Positions 4,917 through 28,673 of a stretch of DNA of 32,824 nucleotides are shown in pieces. A model generated the notes under the pieces. That model searched no databases. It was not told the DNA's origin and saw nothing but the letters and a program-made list of their open reading frames with translations. Location: assembly GCA_001873285.1 (NCBI GenBank), contig MNYV01000044.1:1-32824 (forward strand), in the 5' to 3' direction. The first letter of the stretch is position 1. Each line of letters opens with the position of its first letter. Source of the DNA: Nitrospirae bacterium CG2_30_53_67 (GTDB taxonomy: Bacteria > CG2-30-53-67). A program made the position numbers and the translations under genes.

Positions 4917-6239
4917 TTATTTTTTTGATCGCTTATCGGAAAAAGGGGATATGGCCGCAAACGCCGTATCAGAGACCCGCAGTGCGGAATTTAGGAGTTC
5001 AGAGACATGAAGGACGCGGGTTTTCAAACCCGCCCGTTTCAGCAAGTCCGTAAGATGGATCATACAAGAAGGGCAGGCCGTGGCCACCACTTCGGCTTCC
5101 GTCTCCCGAATCCGTTCGACCTTGTGCCTTCCGATCTTCAGCGAGAGATCGTAATGGCTCATGGAAAAGAGCCCCCCTCCTCCACAGCAACGGTCTGCAT
5201 CCCGCATCTCGACGAACTCGACGCCGGGAAGGCTTTTGAGGATCACCCTGGGGGCCTCCCTGACCCCCATCCCATGGTTCAGATGACAGGGATCATGATA
5301 GGTCACGCGGAGCAGGGGCCGGGTTTCTTCATTGAGAATAAGATCTTTCATCAGGTTCTTGGATATCAGGAATTCCTGCAGATCCATCACTTTTCCCGGC
5401 AGGGGATCTGCGCTGCTTTCTTGAAAGAATTTCGGATAGAGTTCACGGAGCATGTACCCGCAGGTTGCACAGAGGGTGATGACGGCATCCGTTTCATAAG
5501 CGGTGAGGGCGGCAAGGTTGGTTTTCATGGCTTTTCCCGCTGTCTCATAGTCTCCCATAAAGAGCATAGGCGCTCCGCAGCAGGTCATGTTCTCAGGCAC
5601 GATCACCTCAAATCCTGCGCGGTTCAAAATCCGTATGGCGGATTCTCCCCAATGCGGGAAAAAGAGATCCACGGCACATCCATAGAACAAGGCGACCCGG
5701 CCTTTGGGTTCTGATGTCGGACAGTTGACCAGGCGCCGTTTGCGGAAGGGTTTCGCGGACGCCGGGGGGATCTGCCTTGCTGCGCCGTTTTGGACATAGG
5801 GGAGGAGAGGGCGGATGGGCCGGACCCTTGAAAGGGGAGTATAGAGTTTTCTTCCCATGATGTCCATCAGGTGAGCAGAGGTTGTGAGTATCCCCGGGTT
5901 TGAAAAGATCTGCCTTGAGATGAGTTTCTGATAGAAGGGGAGACCCTTCTCACGGCTCAGGATGATTTTTGCGGCCAGATTGGCCAAGTCTGCCGATGAC
6001 CCGGCCGGGCATTGCGCTGAACAGGCCTTGCAGCCGATGCAGGAGGAGAGGATGTCATTGAGATGGTCGGTCAGTTCAAGTTTCCCGGAAAGAACGGAGT
6101 CCAGCAGGGCCATCCTGCCCCGGGCGACCTGTGTCTCATCCGGGTTTTCGATATAGACCGGGCAGACGGACTGGCATGCGCCGCATAGAATACACTTTTT
6201 GACTTCTTTTTCAAATTGTTTCAGGAGGTCTTTTGTCAA
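4917..6239 (-). CDS. Fe-S oxidoreductase with two CCG domains (GlcF/HdrD-like)
   Basis: A 440-residue iron-sulfur electron-transfer protein. The N-terminus carries two [4Fe-4S] motifs, CILCGACQSVCP (residues 16-27) and CIGCKACSAQCP (about 67-78). Two cysteine-rich CCG domains follow, with YGCAVDLFFPH/NMTCCGAP/CATCGYML in the first and DPCHLNHG/DRCCGGGG/ACPSCMIH in the second. This layout matches the GlcF subunit of glycolate oxidase and HdrD-type proteins, which pass electrons from a flavin dehydrogenase to a membrane or thiol acceptor. No FAD-linked partner (GlcD) is in the window. It is the last gene of a minus-strand operon, 22 bases after ccsB, so it may feed electrons to a c-type cytochrome pathway; that link is inference from position. 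Confidence 0.88.
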   Translation of the reverse strand: MTKDLLKQFEKEVKKCILCGACQSVCPVYIENPDETQVARGRMALLDSVLSGKLELTDHLNDILSSCIGCKACSAQCPAGSSADLANLAAKIILSREKGLPFYQKLISRQIFSNPGILTTSAHLMDIMGRKLYTPLSRVRPIRPLLPYVQNGAARQIPPASAKPFRKRRLVNCPTSEPKGRVALFYGCAVDLFFPHWGESAIRILNRAGFEVIVPENMTCCGAPMLFMGDYETAGKAMKTNLAALTAYETDAVITLCATCGYMLRELYPKFFQESSADPLPGKVMDLQEFLISKNLMKDLILNEETRPLLRVTYHDPCHLNHGMGVREAPRVILKSLPGVEFVEMRDADRCCGGGGLFSMSHYDLSLKIGRHKVERIRETEAEVVATACPSCMIHLTDLLKRAGLKTRVLHVSELLNSALRVSDTAFAAISPFSDKRSKK

Positions 6240-24254: not shown

Positions 24255-25502
24255 TCAGGGACACGGAATAAAGGAAAATCCGGAAGGGATGACCCCGACC
24301 TTCAAATTCTTTCCAAATTGATCTTGAGCCCAGTTCAGCGCATCCAAATAATGTCCGAAAAATATCAAACAGGGAAATCCGCCTTTTGGAATGTTAGGCG
24401 TGATGAAGCACAACCGTCCGGTCCTGGATGCCTCGATGACTTTGTATGTGCGGTGTTCGCCGGGTTTCCTGAATCCATAGGCATCCGGTAAACCGCTCTT
24501 CTTCAACAGGCTTTCGAAATTCTTTTCAGCCTGGCTTTCTCCTTGGGCATTGAGGCCGGCGAAAACACAGATGATCCCCCCTTTCTTGATCAGGCGTTTT
24601 TTTTCCAGGACATAATTAAAAAGACGCGAGGCCTGGTACAGACTCCGATCCTTGGGGGAATCGCAACCCACGAACAGCAGATCGAATGGATCCCGGACTC
24701 TATAGGAATAGATCTCTCTTGCAGCCTTTACAGATTCTGTAAAAGACCTTCTTGCTTCTCCCATCGAGTAAAAAGCGATCTCCTTTTGCTGGTTGTTGAC
24801 CAGATTTAAAGAGTAGACCGGGATATCCAGTTTTCTGCAGACCTCCCATAGAAAATGCTGAAAAGGGTTGGCACGGATATTCGAAACCCTGACCCCCTTC
24901 TGTGAAATGTATTCCGGCGAATGTGTATGGAGGATGGTTTCCTGACCCGCCAATCCGATAGCGAGGCATTTGACGCCGCCGCTGAACCCTGCATAAAGAT
25001 GGGGCTCCACCACGCCGACGGTGATGATGACATCATAAGAAAAAAGCCTCCTGTTCAGGGTGGCGGGGACTCCATGTATGATCGACAAGGCAATGACTTC
25101 TTTTGGAGAGTGCTGAACGATCTGATTCTCCCTAATCAAGGGTTCTCCCAAAAAGTCCATGAGGCCGGTTCCGGATAGCCTTTGATGAAGTCCCAGAGAA
25201 ATCATGAATTCAAATCCGCCGGTGATCTTTTTCAATTCTCCTGCAATGGGTTTCAGGATGGCCCTGGAATGGAAATCCCTGGTAGGGTCGGGAATCACGA
25301 TACCGACTTTCTTGTTGGAGAAGGCGCTGTGGTTCTTCCTGAAAAAAGTTCTGATGGAGGTTTGCAGAGAAGAAATGGGTATGCCGGGCTGAGCGTCCTG
25401 ATTATAAAGAAAATCAACTCGGGCCTCTTTTCTAAAACGTAAACGGATTTTGTTTTTTCCTGAGAAGACAAAGCATGAGCCGATATTTTTAATGTCAGCC
25501 AT
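24255..25502 (-). CDS. LarA-family protein (nickel-dependent lactate racemase-like, DUF2088)
   Basis: A protein of about 415 residues of the LarA family, whose characterised members use a nickel-pincer nucleotide to racemise lactate or other 2-hydroxy acids. Family motifs are present: IPDPTRDF, SLGLHQRLSG with the first active-site His, EPHLYAGFSGGVKCL with the nickel-ligand His and the cofactor-attachment Lys, and HTHSPEYI. The cofactor-synthesis genes larB, larC and larE are not in the window. Substrates vary across the family, so lactate is not certain. I start at ATG 25502, where LarA similarity begins; an in-frame TTG overlapping the glutamate synthase stop (TGATTG at 25586) would add 27 residues encoded across a hairpin. 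It follows the glutamate synthase on the same strand. Confidence 0.85.
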   Translation of the reverse strand: MADIKNIGSCFVFSGKNKIRLRFRKEARVDFLYNQDAQPGIPISSLQTSIRTFFRKNHSAFSNKKVGIVIPDPTRDFHSRAILKPIAGELKKITGGFEFMISLGLHQRLSGTGLMDFLGEPLIRENQIVQHSPKEVIALSIIHGVPATLNRRLFSYDVIITVGVVEPHLYAGFSGGVKCLAIGLAGQETILHTHSPEYISQKGVRVSNIRANPFQHFLWEVCRKLDIPVYSLNLVNNQQKEIAFYSMGEARRSFTESVKAAREIYSYRVRDPFDLLFVGCDSPKDRSLYQASRLFNYVLEKKRLIKKGGIICVFAGLNAQGESQAEKNFESLLKKSGLPDAYGFRKPGEHRTYKVIEASRTGRLCFITPNIPKGGFPCLIFFGHYLDALNWAQDQFGKNLKVGVIPSGFSFIPCP

Positions 25503-25522
25503 TTGAATTGACGGCGGCGGAA

Positions 25523-25572
25523 TGAATCCGCATGGGGAAGATGGATGGTCCCATTCTCCCCATGCGGATTCA
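25523..25572 (-). terminator. 16-bp perfect hairpin between the glutamate synthase and LarA genes
   Basis: TGAATCCGCATGGGGA (25523-25538) and TCCCCATGCGGATTCA (25557-25572) are exact reverse complements around an 18-base loop. It lies 11 bases after the glutamate synthase stop and 20 bases before the likely LarA ATG. No T run follows it on the minus strand, so it is a weak intrinsic terminator at best and may be a processing or attenuating hairpin. Confidence 0.6.
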
Positions 25573-25583
25573 GTTGAAGTCAA

Positions 25584-27176
25584 TCAGCCCTTGAGAATCT
25601 TCAGCGCCTCCTTGCGGTACGAATCCATCACGTATGGAATACCCGTGACCTTCTCGCACTCTTCGGTCAGTGACATGAGGTCGTTCCTCGTGATGGAAGA
25701 GACATTGAAGCAGCGTGCGCCGGCCATGATCTGCTGAAGGCCGATCCTGAGCTTGTCTGAGAAACTGACGATGCCGATGGCGCCGAGCGGGATCTTCTTG
25801 ATCTCAGCCTTGCCCACCATCTCCACGACCTTTTCGTAGCAGACGAAGATCTCTTCAACGGTGGATCCGTAGGCGCTCACGGTCTTGGGCAGGTCTTTCT
25901 CCTTGATCCACTTGTCGATGTTTTTGCCGACCATACCCGGGATCATCAATGCCCGGCCCATGCAGACCGCCTTGGTGTAGGGGCCGCCGAGAGCCAGCGC
26001 CTTGAAGATGCCGTCTTCGGAGCTGAAACCTCCGGCAAAGGCCAGATCCGGGACCTTCTCCCCCTGCTTGTCCAGGATCTTTGCGAAATCATACGCGGCG
26101 GAATGGAGATAGAGAGACGGTATGCCCCATTCCTCCATCATCCTCCAGGGGCTCATGCCCGTGCCTCCGGGTGCGCCGTCTATGGTCAAAAGGTCAATCT
26201 TGGCCTTGGAGCCCCACTTGATGGCCATGGCCAGTTCTCTCAGGCCGTAGGCCCCGGTCTTCAAGGTGATCCTCTTGAATCCCAGTTTCCTGAGCCTTGC
26301 CGCCTCGGCATAGAATCCGTCTTCATCAATAAATCCCATACGGCTGTGTCGTTCGAATTCCTTGAGGGCGCCGGCCTTGAAGGCCTGCTGGTTGACCGGA
26401 TCCGAGGGGTCAGGCGTGACGATATAGCCTCTCTTCTGGAGTTCGAGGGCCCGTTCCAGGGAGTTGACCTTGATCTCACCTCCGATGCACTTGGCGCCCT
26501 GTCCCCATTTCAGTTCAATGGTTTCGATCCCGTGCTTGTTGATGATGTATTCGGCCACCCCCAGGCGTGTGTCCTCGACATTCATCTGAATGAGGATCTC
26601 ACCCATGCCTTTGTGGTAGCGCCGGTATGCCTCGATCCTGCGGTCCATGTCCGGCGCTTCTTTCACTTTTTTGTTCTTGTCCAGGACGAGTTTGGGGTCG
26701 ATTCCGCAGACGTTCTCCCCGCAGACGATGGTCACGCCGGAGAGTGCGGCGCCCACGGCAAAGTGCTCCCAGTTCTTTCTCGCGATCTCCGTGGATCCTA
26801 GAGCGCCGGTGAACACGGGAAGGCTCATCTTGACTTTCTGGGTCCAGCCGTATTCGGTTTCGGTGTTGACATCCGGGAAACGCGCCGTATCCGAATTCCC
26901 CTTCACGCCTTTGGGAAGACCTTTGGCCCCCAGGGCATAGCCGTGGATATTAAGATGAGAGTAATCAATCGGGTAGTTCTTGTCCCCGCCGGCCGTGATT
27001 TCTCCGAAGGGGCCGGGATAGATCACTTCGCGCCCGCGGAACGTGGCCCTGAAAATTTCGCAGTTGCCCCGGCATCCGTCCATGCAGCGGGTGCAGATTC
27101 CGCTTACGGGCGCAACACTCTTTGAACGGTTGAACGTTAATGTCGCTTCGTTGGAATTGGGTTGTTGTAAGTTCAT
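25584..27176 (-). CDS. FMN-binding glutamate synthase family protein (archaeal-type GltB core)
   Basis: A 530-residue protein corresponding to the FMN/Fe-S catalytic core of glutamate synthase large subunit, lacking the glutaminase and GXGXG domains. The alpha/beta-barrel FMN site is recognisable from KWGQGAKCIGGEIKV, TIDGAPGGTGMSPW and LAFAGGFSSEDGIFKALALG. Near the N-terminus a cysteine-rich motif, CTRCMDGCRGNC (residues 28-39), may bind an iron-sulfur cluster. The C-terminus has AGARCFNVSSITRNDLMSL. Enzymes of this type reduce 2-oxoglutarate plus ammonia to glutamate with partner subunits, but several stand-alone members are uncharacterised. AGGAGGAGG is six bases before the ATG. It is divergent from nrpR, which suggests nitrogen control. 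Confidence 0.9.
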   Translation of the reverse strand: MNLQQPNSNEATLTFNRSKSVAPVSGICTRCMDGCRGNCEIFRATFRGREVIYPGPFGEITAGGDKNYPIDYSHLNIHGYALGAKGLPKGVKGNSDTARFPDVNTETEYGWTQKVKMSLPVFTGALGSTEIARKNWEHFAVGAALSGVTIVCGENVCGIDPKLVLDKNKKVKEAPDMDRRIEAYRRYHKGMGEILIQMNVEDTRLGVAEYIINKHGIETIELKWGQGAKCIGGEIKVNSLERALELQKRGYIVTPDPSDPVNQQAFKAGALKEFERHSRMGFIDEDGFYAEAARLRKLGFKRITLKTGAYGLRELAMAIKWGSKAKIDLLTIDGAPGGTGMSPWRMMEEWGIPSLYLHSAAYDFAKILDKQGEKVPDLAFAGGFSSEDGIFKALALGGPYTKAVCMGRALMIPGMVGKNIDKWIKEKDLPKTVSAYGSTVEEIFVCYEKVVEMVGKAEIKKIPLGAIGIVSFSDKLRIGLQQIMAGARCFNVSSITRNDLMSLTEECEKVTGIPYVMDSYRKEALKILKG

Positions 27177-27207: not shown

Positions 27208-27217
27208 CGGCTTGCCG
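27208..27217. promoter_or_regulatory. Inverted repeat CGGC-TT-GCCG in the glutamate synthase leader
   Basis: CGGCTTGCCG has perfect CGGC/GCCG arms and lies about 31 bases upstream of the glutamate synthase start. It shares half-sites with the sites at 27467 and 27609 but has a shorter centre, so it may or may not bind the same factor. Confidence 0.35.
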
Positions 27218-27324: not shown

Positions 27325-27337
27325 CCGCATTATGCGG
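27325..27337. promoter_or_regulatory. Inverted repeat CCGCATTATGCGG
   Basis: A 13-base palindrome (CCGCAT-T-ATGCGG) near the middle of the divergent intergenic region, overlapping one of three TTGCCGCA-type words. It is a candidate operator or a chance palindrome. Confidence 0.35.
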
Positions 27338-27466
27338 CAATGGATTACCAATACTATTAGGAAGCTGCAGGAGAGTCAATAAAAAAAGTCTGAAAAATAG
27401 CCTGCAAAAACCCTTATGACGTGGCAGGTCTTGGTTCGTATCGTCTTTTCGCCCCCTGGCCATTAA

Positions 27467-27480
27467 CGGCAATTTTGCCG
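27467..27480. promoter_or_regulatory. Candidate operator CGGCAA-TT-TTGCCG
   Basis: Six-base arms CGGCAA and TTGCCG are perfectly inverted around TT. A near-identical site occurs at 27609-27622. NrpR in methanogens binds GGAA-N6-TTCC-type palindromes; the arms here are similar in style but the spacing is two bases shorter, so assignment to NrpR is inference. Confidence 0.45.
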
Positions 27481-27608
27481 GATAGGATGTTGCTTTCGCC
27501 GGCAGGCTGTCGGCTGGATATGATGCCGATTCGCCTTAATGGAAGTTTCTTGCAACGATTCAAACAGGAAAGGGGTAGAATGCCCGGATCTTTGTCTCTC
27601 AAGGTTTG

Positions 27609-27622
27609 CGGCAAAATTTCCG
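27609..27622. promoter_or_regulatory. Candidate operator CGGCAA-AA-TTTCCG upstream of nrpR
   Basis: One base from perfect symmetry, and 13 of 14 bases identical to the 27467 site when read on the other strand (CGGAAATTTTGCCG). It lies 43 bases before the nrpR ATG, a position suited to autorepression. Confidence 0.45.
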
Positions 27623-27665
27623 TTTTTTATTTGAAAATAATCGCCGGATCCTGTATTTTTTCTTT

Positions 27666-28673
27666 ATGAGTGAAAAAACGGAAAAAAAAGAATTGGCTAT
27701 TCTGCGGCTCCTGCAGAAAGCACAAGGACCGCTCACCAGTTTAAATTTGATTGAGAATCTCCAAGCCATGGGACACGAGGTCAGCGAGCGGACGGTCCGA
27801 TATTATTTTAAGGAGATGGACCGTAAAGGCCTGACCAAAAACCTCGGCAAAAAAGGCCGGATCATTACAGAGTCGGGCCTCAAGGAATTGGGCGATGCAA
27901 GGGTCTTTGACAAGGTCGGCTTTCTGACCGCCAAGATTGATCAGTTGACCTACCGGATGAGTTTCGATCTTCATAAGAAGAGCGGGACGGTCATTGTTAA
28001 TGTCAGTCTCTTCCATCCCGGTCGGCTTCTCCAACTTTGCCCGCTGATCCAGCGGGTCTTTGATGCGGGGTATGCCATGGGCGCCATGATGGCCCTTTTC
28101 AGGCACGGTGAACGGGTGGGGGACATCATCATTCCAAAAAACATGGTGGGGCTCGGCACCGTTTGTTCCATCACACTGAACGGCGTTCTTCTGGCCCACG
28201 GGATTCCCACCCACTCCAGTTTCGGCGGCTTACTGGAGCTTCGAGATCACAAACCCACACGATTTGTGGAGATCATCAGATATGACGGGACCAGCCTGGA
28301 CCCCCTTGAAGTATTCATCAGAAGCGGGATGACCGATTACTCCGGGGCGACCGAAACCGGGAACGGCCGTATCGGGGTGGGTTTCAGGGAAGTGCCGTCG
28401 GACAGCCGGGATCGTATTCTGTCGCTGATGCACGAACTCGAGGAAGCGGGACTGGGAGGCTTCTTGATGATCGGCTGGCCCGGACAACCTCTGTTGGAAA
28501 TTCCGGTGATGGAGGGAAGATTGGGGGCCATTGTCATCGGCGGCCTGAACCCCGTCGCCATTCTTGAAGAAAAGAACATCAAGGTAAGATCAAGGGCCAT
28601 GGCCGGCATGGTGGAATATGAGAGATTATTTCATTACGGTGAGATGGAGGAACGGATCCGGAAAATCATTTGA
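27666..28673 (+). CDS. nrpR: NrpR-family transcriptional repressor (DUF128)
   Basis: A 335-residue regulator with an N-terminal winged helix (residues about 5-70: EKKELAILRLLQKAQGPLTS, then VSERTVRYYFKEMDRKGLTK) followed by one NrpR/DUF128 domain. Domain landmarks are FHPGRLLQLCPLIQRVFDAG, GERVGDIIIPKNMVGLGTVC, GVLLAHGIPTHSSFGGLLEL and LGAIVIGGLNPVAILEE. In methanogenic archaea NrpR represses nitrogen-assimilation genes and releases DNA on binding 2-oxoglutarate; bacterial members are less studied. I start at ATG 27666; a TTG at 27606 would add 20 residues of unlikely sequence. It faces a glutamate synthase gene, which supports a nitrogen role. It ends four bases from the convergent transporter gene. 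Confidence 0.9.
   Translation: MSEKTEKKELAILRLLQKAQGPLTSLNLIENLQAMGHEVSERTVRYYFKEMDRKGLTKNLGKKGRIITESGLKELGDARVFDKVGFLTAKIDQLTYRMSFDLHKKSGTVIVNVSLFHPGRLLQLCPLIQRVFDAGYAMGAMMALFRHGERVGDIIIPKNMVGLGTVCSITLNGVLLAHGIPTHSSFGGLLELRDHKPTRFVEIIRYDGTSLDPLEVFIRSGMTDYSGATETGNGRIGVGFREVPSDSRDRILSLMHELEEAGLGGFLMIGWPGQPLLEIPVMEGRLGAIVIGGLNPVAILEEKNIKVRSRAMAGMVEYERLFHYGEMEERIRKII

Follow-up and report, generated by a model that had tools for sequence, protein, structure and literature searches.

Predicted operators of a bacterial NrpR: one half-site at two spacings

The nrpR locus and its palindromes

The control region of an nrpR gene from Nitrospirae bacterium CG2_30_53_67 contains inverted repeats of a single half-site, GGCAA/TTGCC, at two spacings, and we consider it highly probable that these palindromes serve the bacterial NrpR encoded next to them as operators. 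The sites are very likely places where NrpR binds; most likely the wide site is used for repression of nitrogen assimilation, and the narrow sites for control of nrpR itself. We infer NrpR binding, repression, autoregulation and the effector from sequence comparison and from analogy with methanogens. The locus was analysed within a window, meaning the whole 32,824-nucleotide stretch of DNA under study, in which a gene at 27666-28673 (plus strand) encodes a protein of 335 amino acids from an ATG at 27666. Pfam assigns this protein a winged-helix domain (HTH_12, PF08461, E 6.8e-16) and one regulatory domain (NRD1_2, PF01995, E 3.3e-79, 265.9 bits against a cut-off of 25), and it also matches PDB entry 3nek, nitrogen repressor-like protein MJ0159 (E 2.4e-24). 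It is a member of the NrpR family, which is already known, and residues R42, V44 and R45 of its putative recognition helix are invariant in an alignment of 16 of the 19 NrpR proteins found. A TTG at 27606 was rejected as the start of nrpR; it overlaps one of the palindromes (site C, below), and the N-terminus shared by related proteins (MSEKT/MSDKT in the window, G001, G031, G060, L009 and L010) begins at the ATG.

Divergent from nrpR, across 489 intergenic bases, lies a glutamate synthase-like (gltB-like) gene (25584-27176, minus strand; 530 amino acids; Glu_synthase domain PF01645, 3.1e-14), which we infer to be a target of NrpR. Directly downstream of it is a LarA-like gene (24255-25583, minus strand; Pfam Lar_N, 1.8e-25) that possibly forms one operon with it; the score of the Lar_N protein is far under the cut-offs of named racemase families.

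Two near-identical palindromes had been reported in this region by the first-pass annotation, and both are present: narrow site B, CGGCAA-TT-TTGCCG (27467-27480, core 27468-27479), and narrow site C, CGGCAA-AA-TTTCCG (27609-27622, core 27610-27621), stand 142 bp apart and match at 13 of 14 positions in reverse complement. Their spacing was said to be two bases shorter than that of the methanogen site, which is correct, since both are GG-N8-CC, against the GG-N10-CC of GGAA-N6-TTCC. The same annotation had proposed bacterial NrpR operators of a distinct spacing class; this core idea is supported, but it was incomplete, as it missed a wide, methanogen-type site of the GG-N10-CC form, site A, at 27336-27349 (GGCAA-TGGA-TTACC; GGCAATGGATTACC, or GGTAATCCATTGCC when read on the minus strand). 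All three predicted operators are conserved in G001, a genome of the same genus, in which sites A and C are identical (14 of 14 bases each) and site B shares 13 of 14 bases, compared with 393 of 489 bases for the region as a whole. Related half-sites had also been pointed out at 27208. The sequence CGGCTTGCCG is present at 27208-27217, but one of its halves is broken in G001, and the dyad search described below yields no such class; it was thus rejected as a fourth operator.

Within a single genome the palindromes are modestly improbable when taken alone, which is suggestive only. The pattern CGGMAAWWTTKCCG matches just 27467-27480 and 27609-27622 in the 2,362,572 bases of the window's genome and its backwards control matches one place; the motif is therefore not spread across the intergenic DNA of this genome, a spread that the annotation had named as counting against its idea. 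When up to three mismatches were accepted, the motif was at chance frequency in the window, with 6 copies against 5.47 expected. The 489-base intergenic region holds two perfect 6-2-6 dyads, and at least one such dyad occurs in 178 of 1000 Markov shuffles; it also holds three pairs of 14-mers that are reverse complements of each other but for one base at most, and at least one such pair occurs in 4 of 60 shuffles. Because these single-genome statistics are weak, the case for operators rests on comparison between genomes.

Recurrence over nrpR control regions

Our comparison used 19 full-length bacterial nrpR genes, two of them from the window's genome. PF01995 scored over its cut-off in 16 of 386 genomes searched, including the window's own, and six NRD matches below the cut-off were excluded from the set of control regions. 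The limits of the 19 regions were set from gene starts; G272 and G132 were represented by the DNA that precedes the whole operon. An unbiased search of these regions for all 5-mer dyads with spacers of 0-12 ranked GGCAA-N2-TTGCC first, in 11 of 19 regions, followed by GGCAA-N4-TTGCC and CGGCA-N4, which tie at six regions each, CGGCA-N4 being a one-base shift of the narrow site; the maximum reached by any dyad in 200 Markov shuffles was four regions. When the half-sites were relaxed to GGYAA/TTRCC, spacer 2 was found in 14 of the 19 regions, so that the motif does recur upstream of other nrpR genes, as the proposal of the first-pass annotation required, and spacer 4 was found in 10. Spacers 9, 12 and 13 gave single matches, and spacers 0, 1, 3, 5-8, 10, 11 and 14 gave none in the 19 regions. 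The five regions with no exact narrow site are those of G061, G132, G087, G356 and G228.

Wide and narrow sites have the same half-site and flank preferences (19 narrow and 12 wide sites, a set that excludes G047:C33 and one site lacking 4-nt flanks). The third base of the half-site is C at a frequency of 0.87 in narrow and 0.79 in wide sites and T otherwise, the search pattern having allowed only these two bases. The description of the motif as CGG...CCG was not exact: the GGCAA/TTGCC core is conserved, but the outer C occurs in just 63% of narrow half-sites (46% of wide ones), and an outer G never occurs. A second narrow site, with zero to two mismatches to GGCAA/TTGCC, is present in G031, G060, L009, L010, G156 and G293. 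The distances from narrow site to narrow site are 142, 152, 73, 78, 139, 210 and 42 bp and have no common phase; looping set by helical phase is therefore not supported. In G060, an extra palindrome, GGCATTTCTGCC, is found at positions 2045-2056 of locus L062, 23 bp upstream of narrow site B.

The window's genome (G000) encodes a second NrpR, 45% identical to that of the window, on contig C76 (locus L020, 5033-6058, minus strand). Its intergenic region has two narrow sites, at 6155 and 6197, which are 42 bp apart and one of which lies on the predicted -10 element, and among its divergent neighbours is a protein that combines a glutamate synthase domain and ferredoxin-type domains. The phylum sets of the window (eight genomes), G031 (three), G293 (two) and G222 (three) are disjoint, and the records for L009 and L010 are titled Deltaproteobacteria bacterium and Desulfocapsa sp., respectively, indicating that the sites extend beyond a single phylum. 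Chance palindromes, RNA hairpins or dispersed repeats with no regulatory role would fit the weak single-genome statistics and the genome-wide counts of the window's genome, which equal their control (below), but they would not account for recurrence over at least four phylum sets, for two exact spacers or for placement at predicted promoters. Already disfavoured by the dyad search over the 19 nrpR regions, such an origin strikes us as extremely improbable.

Association with nitrogen-assimilation genes and NrpR presence

The nrpR genes are linked to glutamate synthase-like, glutamate dehydrogenase (gdh), glnA and PII genes, with sites in between. A gltB-like gene adjoins nrpR and the sites in the window, G001, G031, G060, G156 and G293; glutamate dehydrogenase does so in L009 and G222 and, judged by a similar sequence start, in L010; and a gltB-like/gdh/glnA cluster does so in G272. 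Two clusters are without a narrow site, gltB-like/nrpR/PII in G061 and gltB-like/nrpR/PII-like/glnA (glnA confirmed) in G132, the latter with two wide sites. A wide site of G132, GGTAATCGGTTACC, reads GGTA...TACC. This reading resembles the Methanosarcina NrpR operator, GGTA-N6-TACC, as do those of some other bacterial wide sites, with the difference that Methanosarcina promoters are archaeal. In addition, proteins that carry a PEP-synthase ATP-binding domain are repeatedly encoded close to nrpR (L009 1363-3975, L078 7352-9976 and L079 3186-5783), as recognised by Pfam in L009 and L079 and by weak NCBIfam matches in L078. The protein at 7896-9161 of L080 has KaiC, helix-turn-helix and cupin domains, and its start resembles that of the PEP-synthase neighbour by eye.

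We compared gltB-like upstream regions between genomes with and without NrpR, taking the genomes of the gltB-like search to be among those searched with the NrpR profile. Matches to the gltB-like gene at E 1e-60 or better occur in 60 of 372 genomes, and 63 of the 64 matches were used, the one in G287 being excluded as it begins at a contig end. Exact sites within 600 bp upstream were found in 9 of 16 rows from NrpR-positive genomes versus 2 of 47 from NrpR-negative genomes (Fisher 2.1e-5, with no correction for kinship, so that p-values treat these related sequences as more independent than they are). When regions shorter than 300 nt were excluded and two G047 rows set apart, spacer 2 occurred in 7 of 16 NrpR-positive versus 1 of 41 NrpR-negative regions and spacer 4 in 8 of 16 versus 0 of 41. 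The seven NrpR-positive rows without an exact site are G132, G002, G004, G087, G128, G061 and the second copy of G272. As for the two NrpR-negative exceptions, G234 has one narrow site, and in G047 an NrpR-related fragment adjoins the sites (40% identity over 45 residues, E 2.6e-7 when compared with this one short subject).

Several sites stand at genes distant from nrpR. The gltB-like gene with sites is on another contig in G356 and about 62 kb away on the same contig in G228, and sites also precede the amt gene of G356 and the glnA gene of G128, both of which are on a different contig from nrpR. Among 23 amt and 17 glnA upstream regions, 3 of 40 have a spacer-2 or spacer-4 site (G356 amt, G128 glnA and, 836 nt away, G001 amt), and G061 has a spacer-8 match. 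The two amt matches and one glnA match of the window's genome are without an exact spacer-2 or spacer-4 site within 900 nt upstream. The predicted targets of bacterial NrpR are glutamate synthase-like and glutamate dehydrogenase genes and sometimes glnA and amt.

A different regulator that travels with the nitrogen genes could bind the sites in place of NrpR, and candidates can be named in the recurring PEP-synthase domain protein and in the KaiC-type neighbour of G132, which has a helix-turn-helix. We regard this as quite improbable; the sites follow the presence of NrpR, including at genes distant from nrpR, and they recur at the paralogous nrpR, where no such protein was seen within the surrounding 11 kb.

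The regulon of the window's genome looks confined to the two nrpR divergons, with the qualification that exact matching may miss weaker sites. Genome-wide, GGYAA-N2..4-TTRCC, a pattern too strict to include site C or the site on the -10 box at the second nrpR, is not above its reversed control in this genome (22 versus 28), nor is a further count (6 versus 5), and two relatives that lack NrpR are similar (7 versus 9 in G003, 6 versus 11 in G005). All 22 matches were inspected, and a broad NrpR regulon in this genome was rejected. Those outside called genes or in nrpR divergons are the wide site and narrow site B on C44, a narrow site on C76, and matches on C36 and C162 with no evident nitrogen neighbour; genes were called by a simple longest-ORF procedure, whose calls wrongly extend over some promoter sites. 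In some other genomes GGCAANNTTGCC exceeds its reversed control (G272, 20 versus 1; G060, 13 versus 1; G031, 13 versus 3; G128, 12 versus 4), and the 20 places in G272 might reflect a larger regulon there. The AT-core places of G031 and G060 that were inspected away from nrpR fall inside called genes.

Promoter placement and the two spacings

Both promoters of the divergon are predicted by consensus match alone. The sigma70 promoter of the gltB-like gene (27351-27379, minus strand) has a -35 box TTGACT at 27374-27379, a 17-bp spacer and a -10 box TAGTAT at 27351-27356, and wide operator A begins 1 nt past the -10 box, covering the predicted start site. The nrpR promoter (27631-27659, plus strand) has a -35 box TTGAAA at 27631-27636, a 17-bp spacer and a -10 box TATTTT at 27654-27659. 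Because this -10 box ends 6 nt before the ATG, the nrpR transcript of the window may be leaderless. No ribosome-binding site is evident by eye at 27654-27666, and G031, L009 and L010 are alike in this respect, also by eye. In random windows of the same regions the best promoter score was at least 9 in 250 of 1,280 cases; single predicted promoters are therefore weak evidence, and it is the recurring distances that carry the argument.

A site over the transcription start is where a classical repressor would sit. We scored this arrangement by requiring a -10 box followed within 0-3 nt by a wide-type site (one mismatch allowed), together with a TTG -35 box and a promoter score of at least 8 out of 12, and found it in 8 of 21 NrpR-positive regions versus 1 of 47 NrpR-negative regions, the latter being G047. 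Not all wide sites are placed in this way. Those of G356 and G228 lie upstream of the best promoter, stopping 2 bp short of its -35 box and away from the start site, and in G132, G222 and G272 no wide site stands directly at a -10 box. In the proposed mechanism, NrpR on the wide operator at 27336-27349 would block RNA polymerase at the gltB-like start site. The narrow operators at 27467-27480 and 27609-27622, upstream of the predicted nrpR promoter, would serve autoregulation and possibly aid repression of the target. Methanogen NrpR is released by 2-oxoglutarate (PMC11957540); by analogy, a rise of this compound in nitrogen shortage would release the bacterial protein from its sites.

The narrow sites also keep a recurring position. 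Among 14 loci with an exact narrow site, seven have it ending exactly 9 bp before a best-scoring -35 box, namely both G000 copies (a tie in the second), G001, G031, G060, L009 and L010, and two have it at 10 bp, G222 and G272, in the latter facing the first gene of the operon. A fixed distance upstream of the -35 box is typical of polymerase contact, and the recurring 9-bp distance, which spans four lineages and includes the tied paralogue, hints at such contact here. The narrow site could accordingly be an activator site of nrpR, fixed about 50 bp before the start, with the wide sites repressing the targets. This we consider unlikely; five of the 14 loci lack the 9- or 10-bp distance by score (G156, 3 bp; G293, 7; G002, 20; G004, 11; G128, none scored), with G002 and G004 fitting a 9-6-17 arrangement by eye only, given a weak -35 box and a degenerate upstream site. 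As read by eye, the G128 site follows a promoter-like sequence and precedes the start codon. Moreover, the second nrpR, G002 and G004 have a further narrow site on the -10 box, 42 bp downstream of the upstream one, which favours autorepression in this paralogue clade, and archaeal NrpR is described as a repressor (PMC11957540).

Comparison with the methanogen system separates shared from distinct features. A 2012 paper describes NrpR as apparently restricted to euryarchaeota (PMC3584215). NrpR of Methanococcus maripaludis binds GGAA-N6-TTCC (PMC2723118; also PMC4335013), and its listed targets are nif, glnK-amtB, glnA, molybdate transport and an alanine symporter (PMC2723118). Common to both systems are the PF01995 domain, an inverted repeat with GG/CC ends, the equal GG-N10-CC length of the bacterial wide site and nitrogen-assimilation targets, which in bacteria are predicted. 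The bacterial half-site differs in being GGCAA rather than GGAA, and bacteria have the second, narrow GG-N8-CC class, sigma70-type predicted promoters and predicted targets among which glutamate synthase-like and glutamate dehydrogenase genes predominate. We found no bacterial NrpR operator in the open-access literature searched, a scope outside which key older papers fall. For the bacterial branch of NrpR, whose other descriptions come from methanogens, the sites offer an operator code that can be tested.

In the simplest reading, bacterial NrpR would keep the archaeal spacing at its targets and use a narrower version at its own promoter. Going further, the spacing itself could encode the job, with the wide 14-bp site for repression of targets at the start site and a derived narrow 12-bp site, about 50 bp upstream, for nrpR, possibly as an activator site; this proposal is tentative, and we hold it to have somewhat less than an even chance. 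If it is true, a spacer code of one regulator would separate autoregulation from target control. CRP-type regulators tolerate two half-site spacers, N6 and N8, and are similar in that a single dimeric regulator accepts one half-site with either of two spacers, which differ by two bp. They belong to an unrelated protein family, and in bacterial NrpR, unlike in that system, the spacing sorts with the kind of promoter, providing a natural system in which two spacer lengths of one half-site are divided between two promoter kinds.
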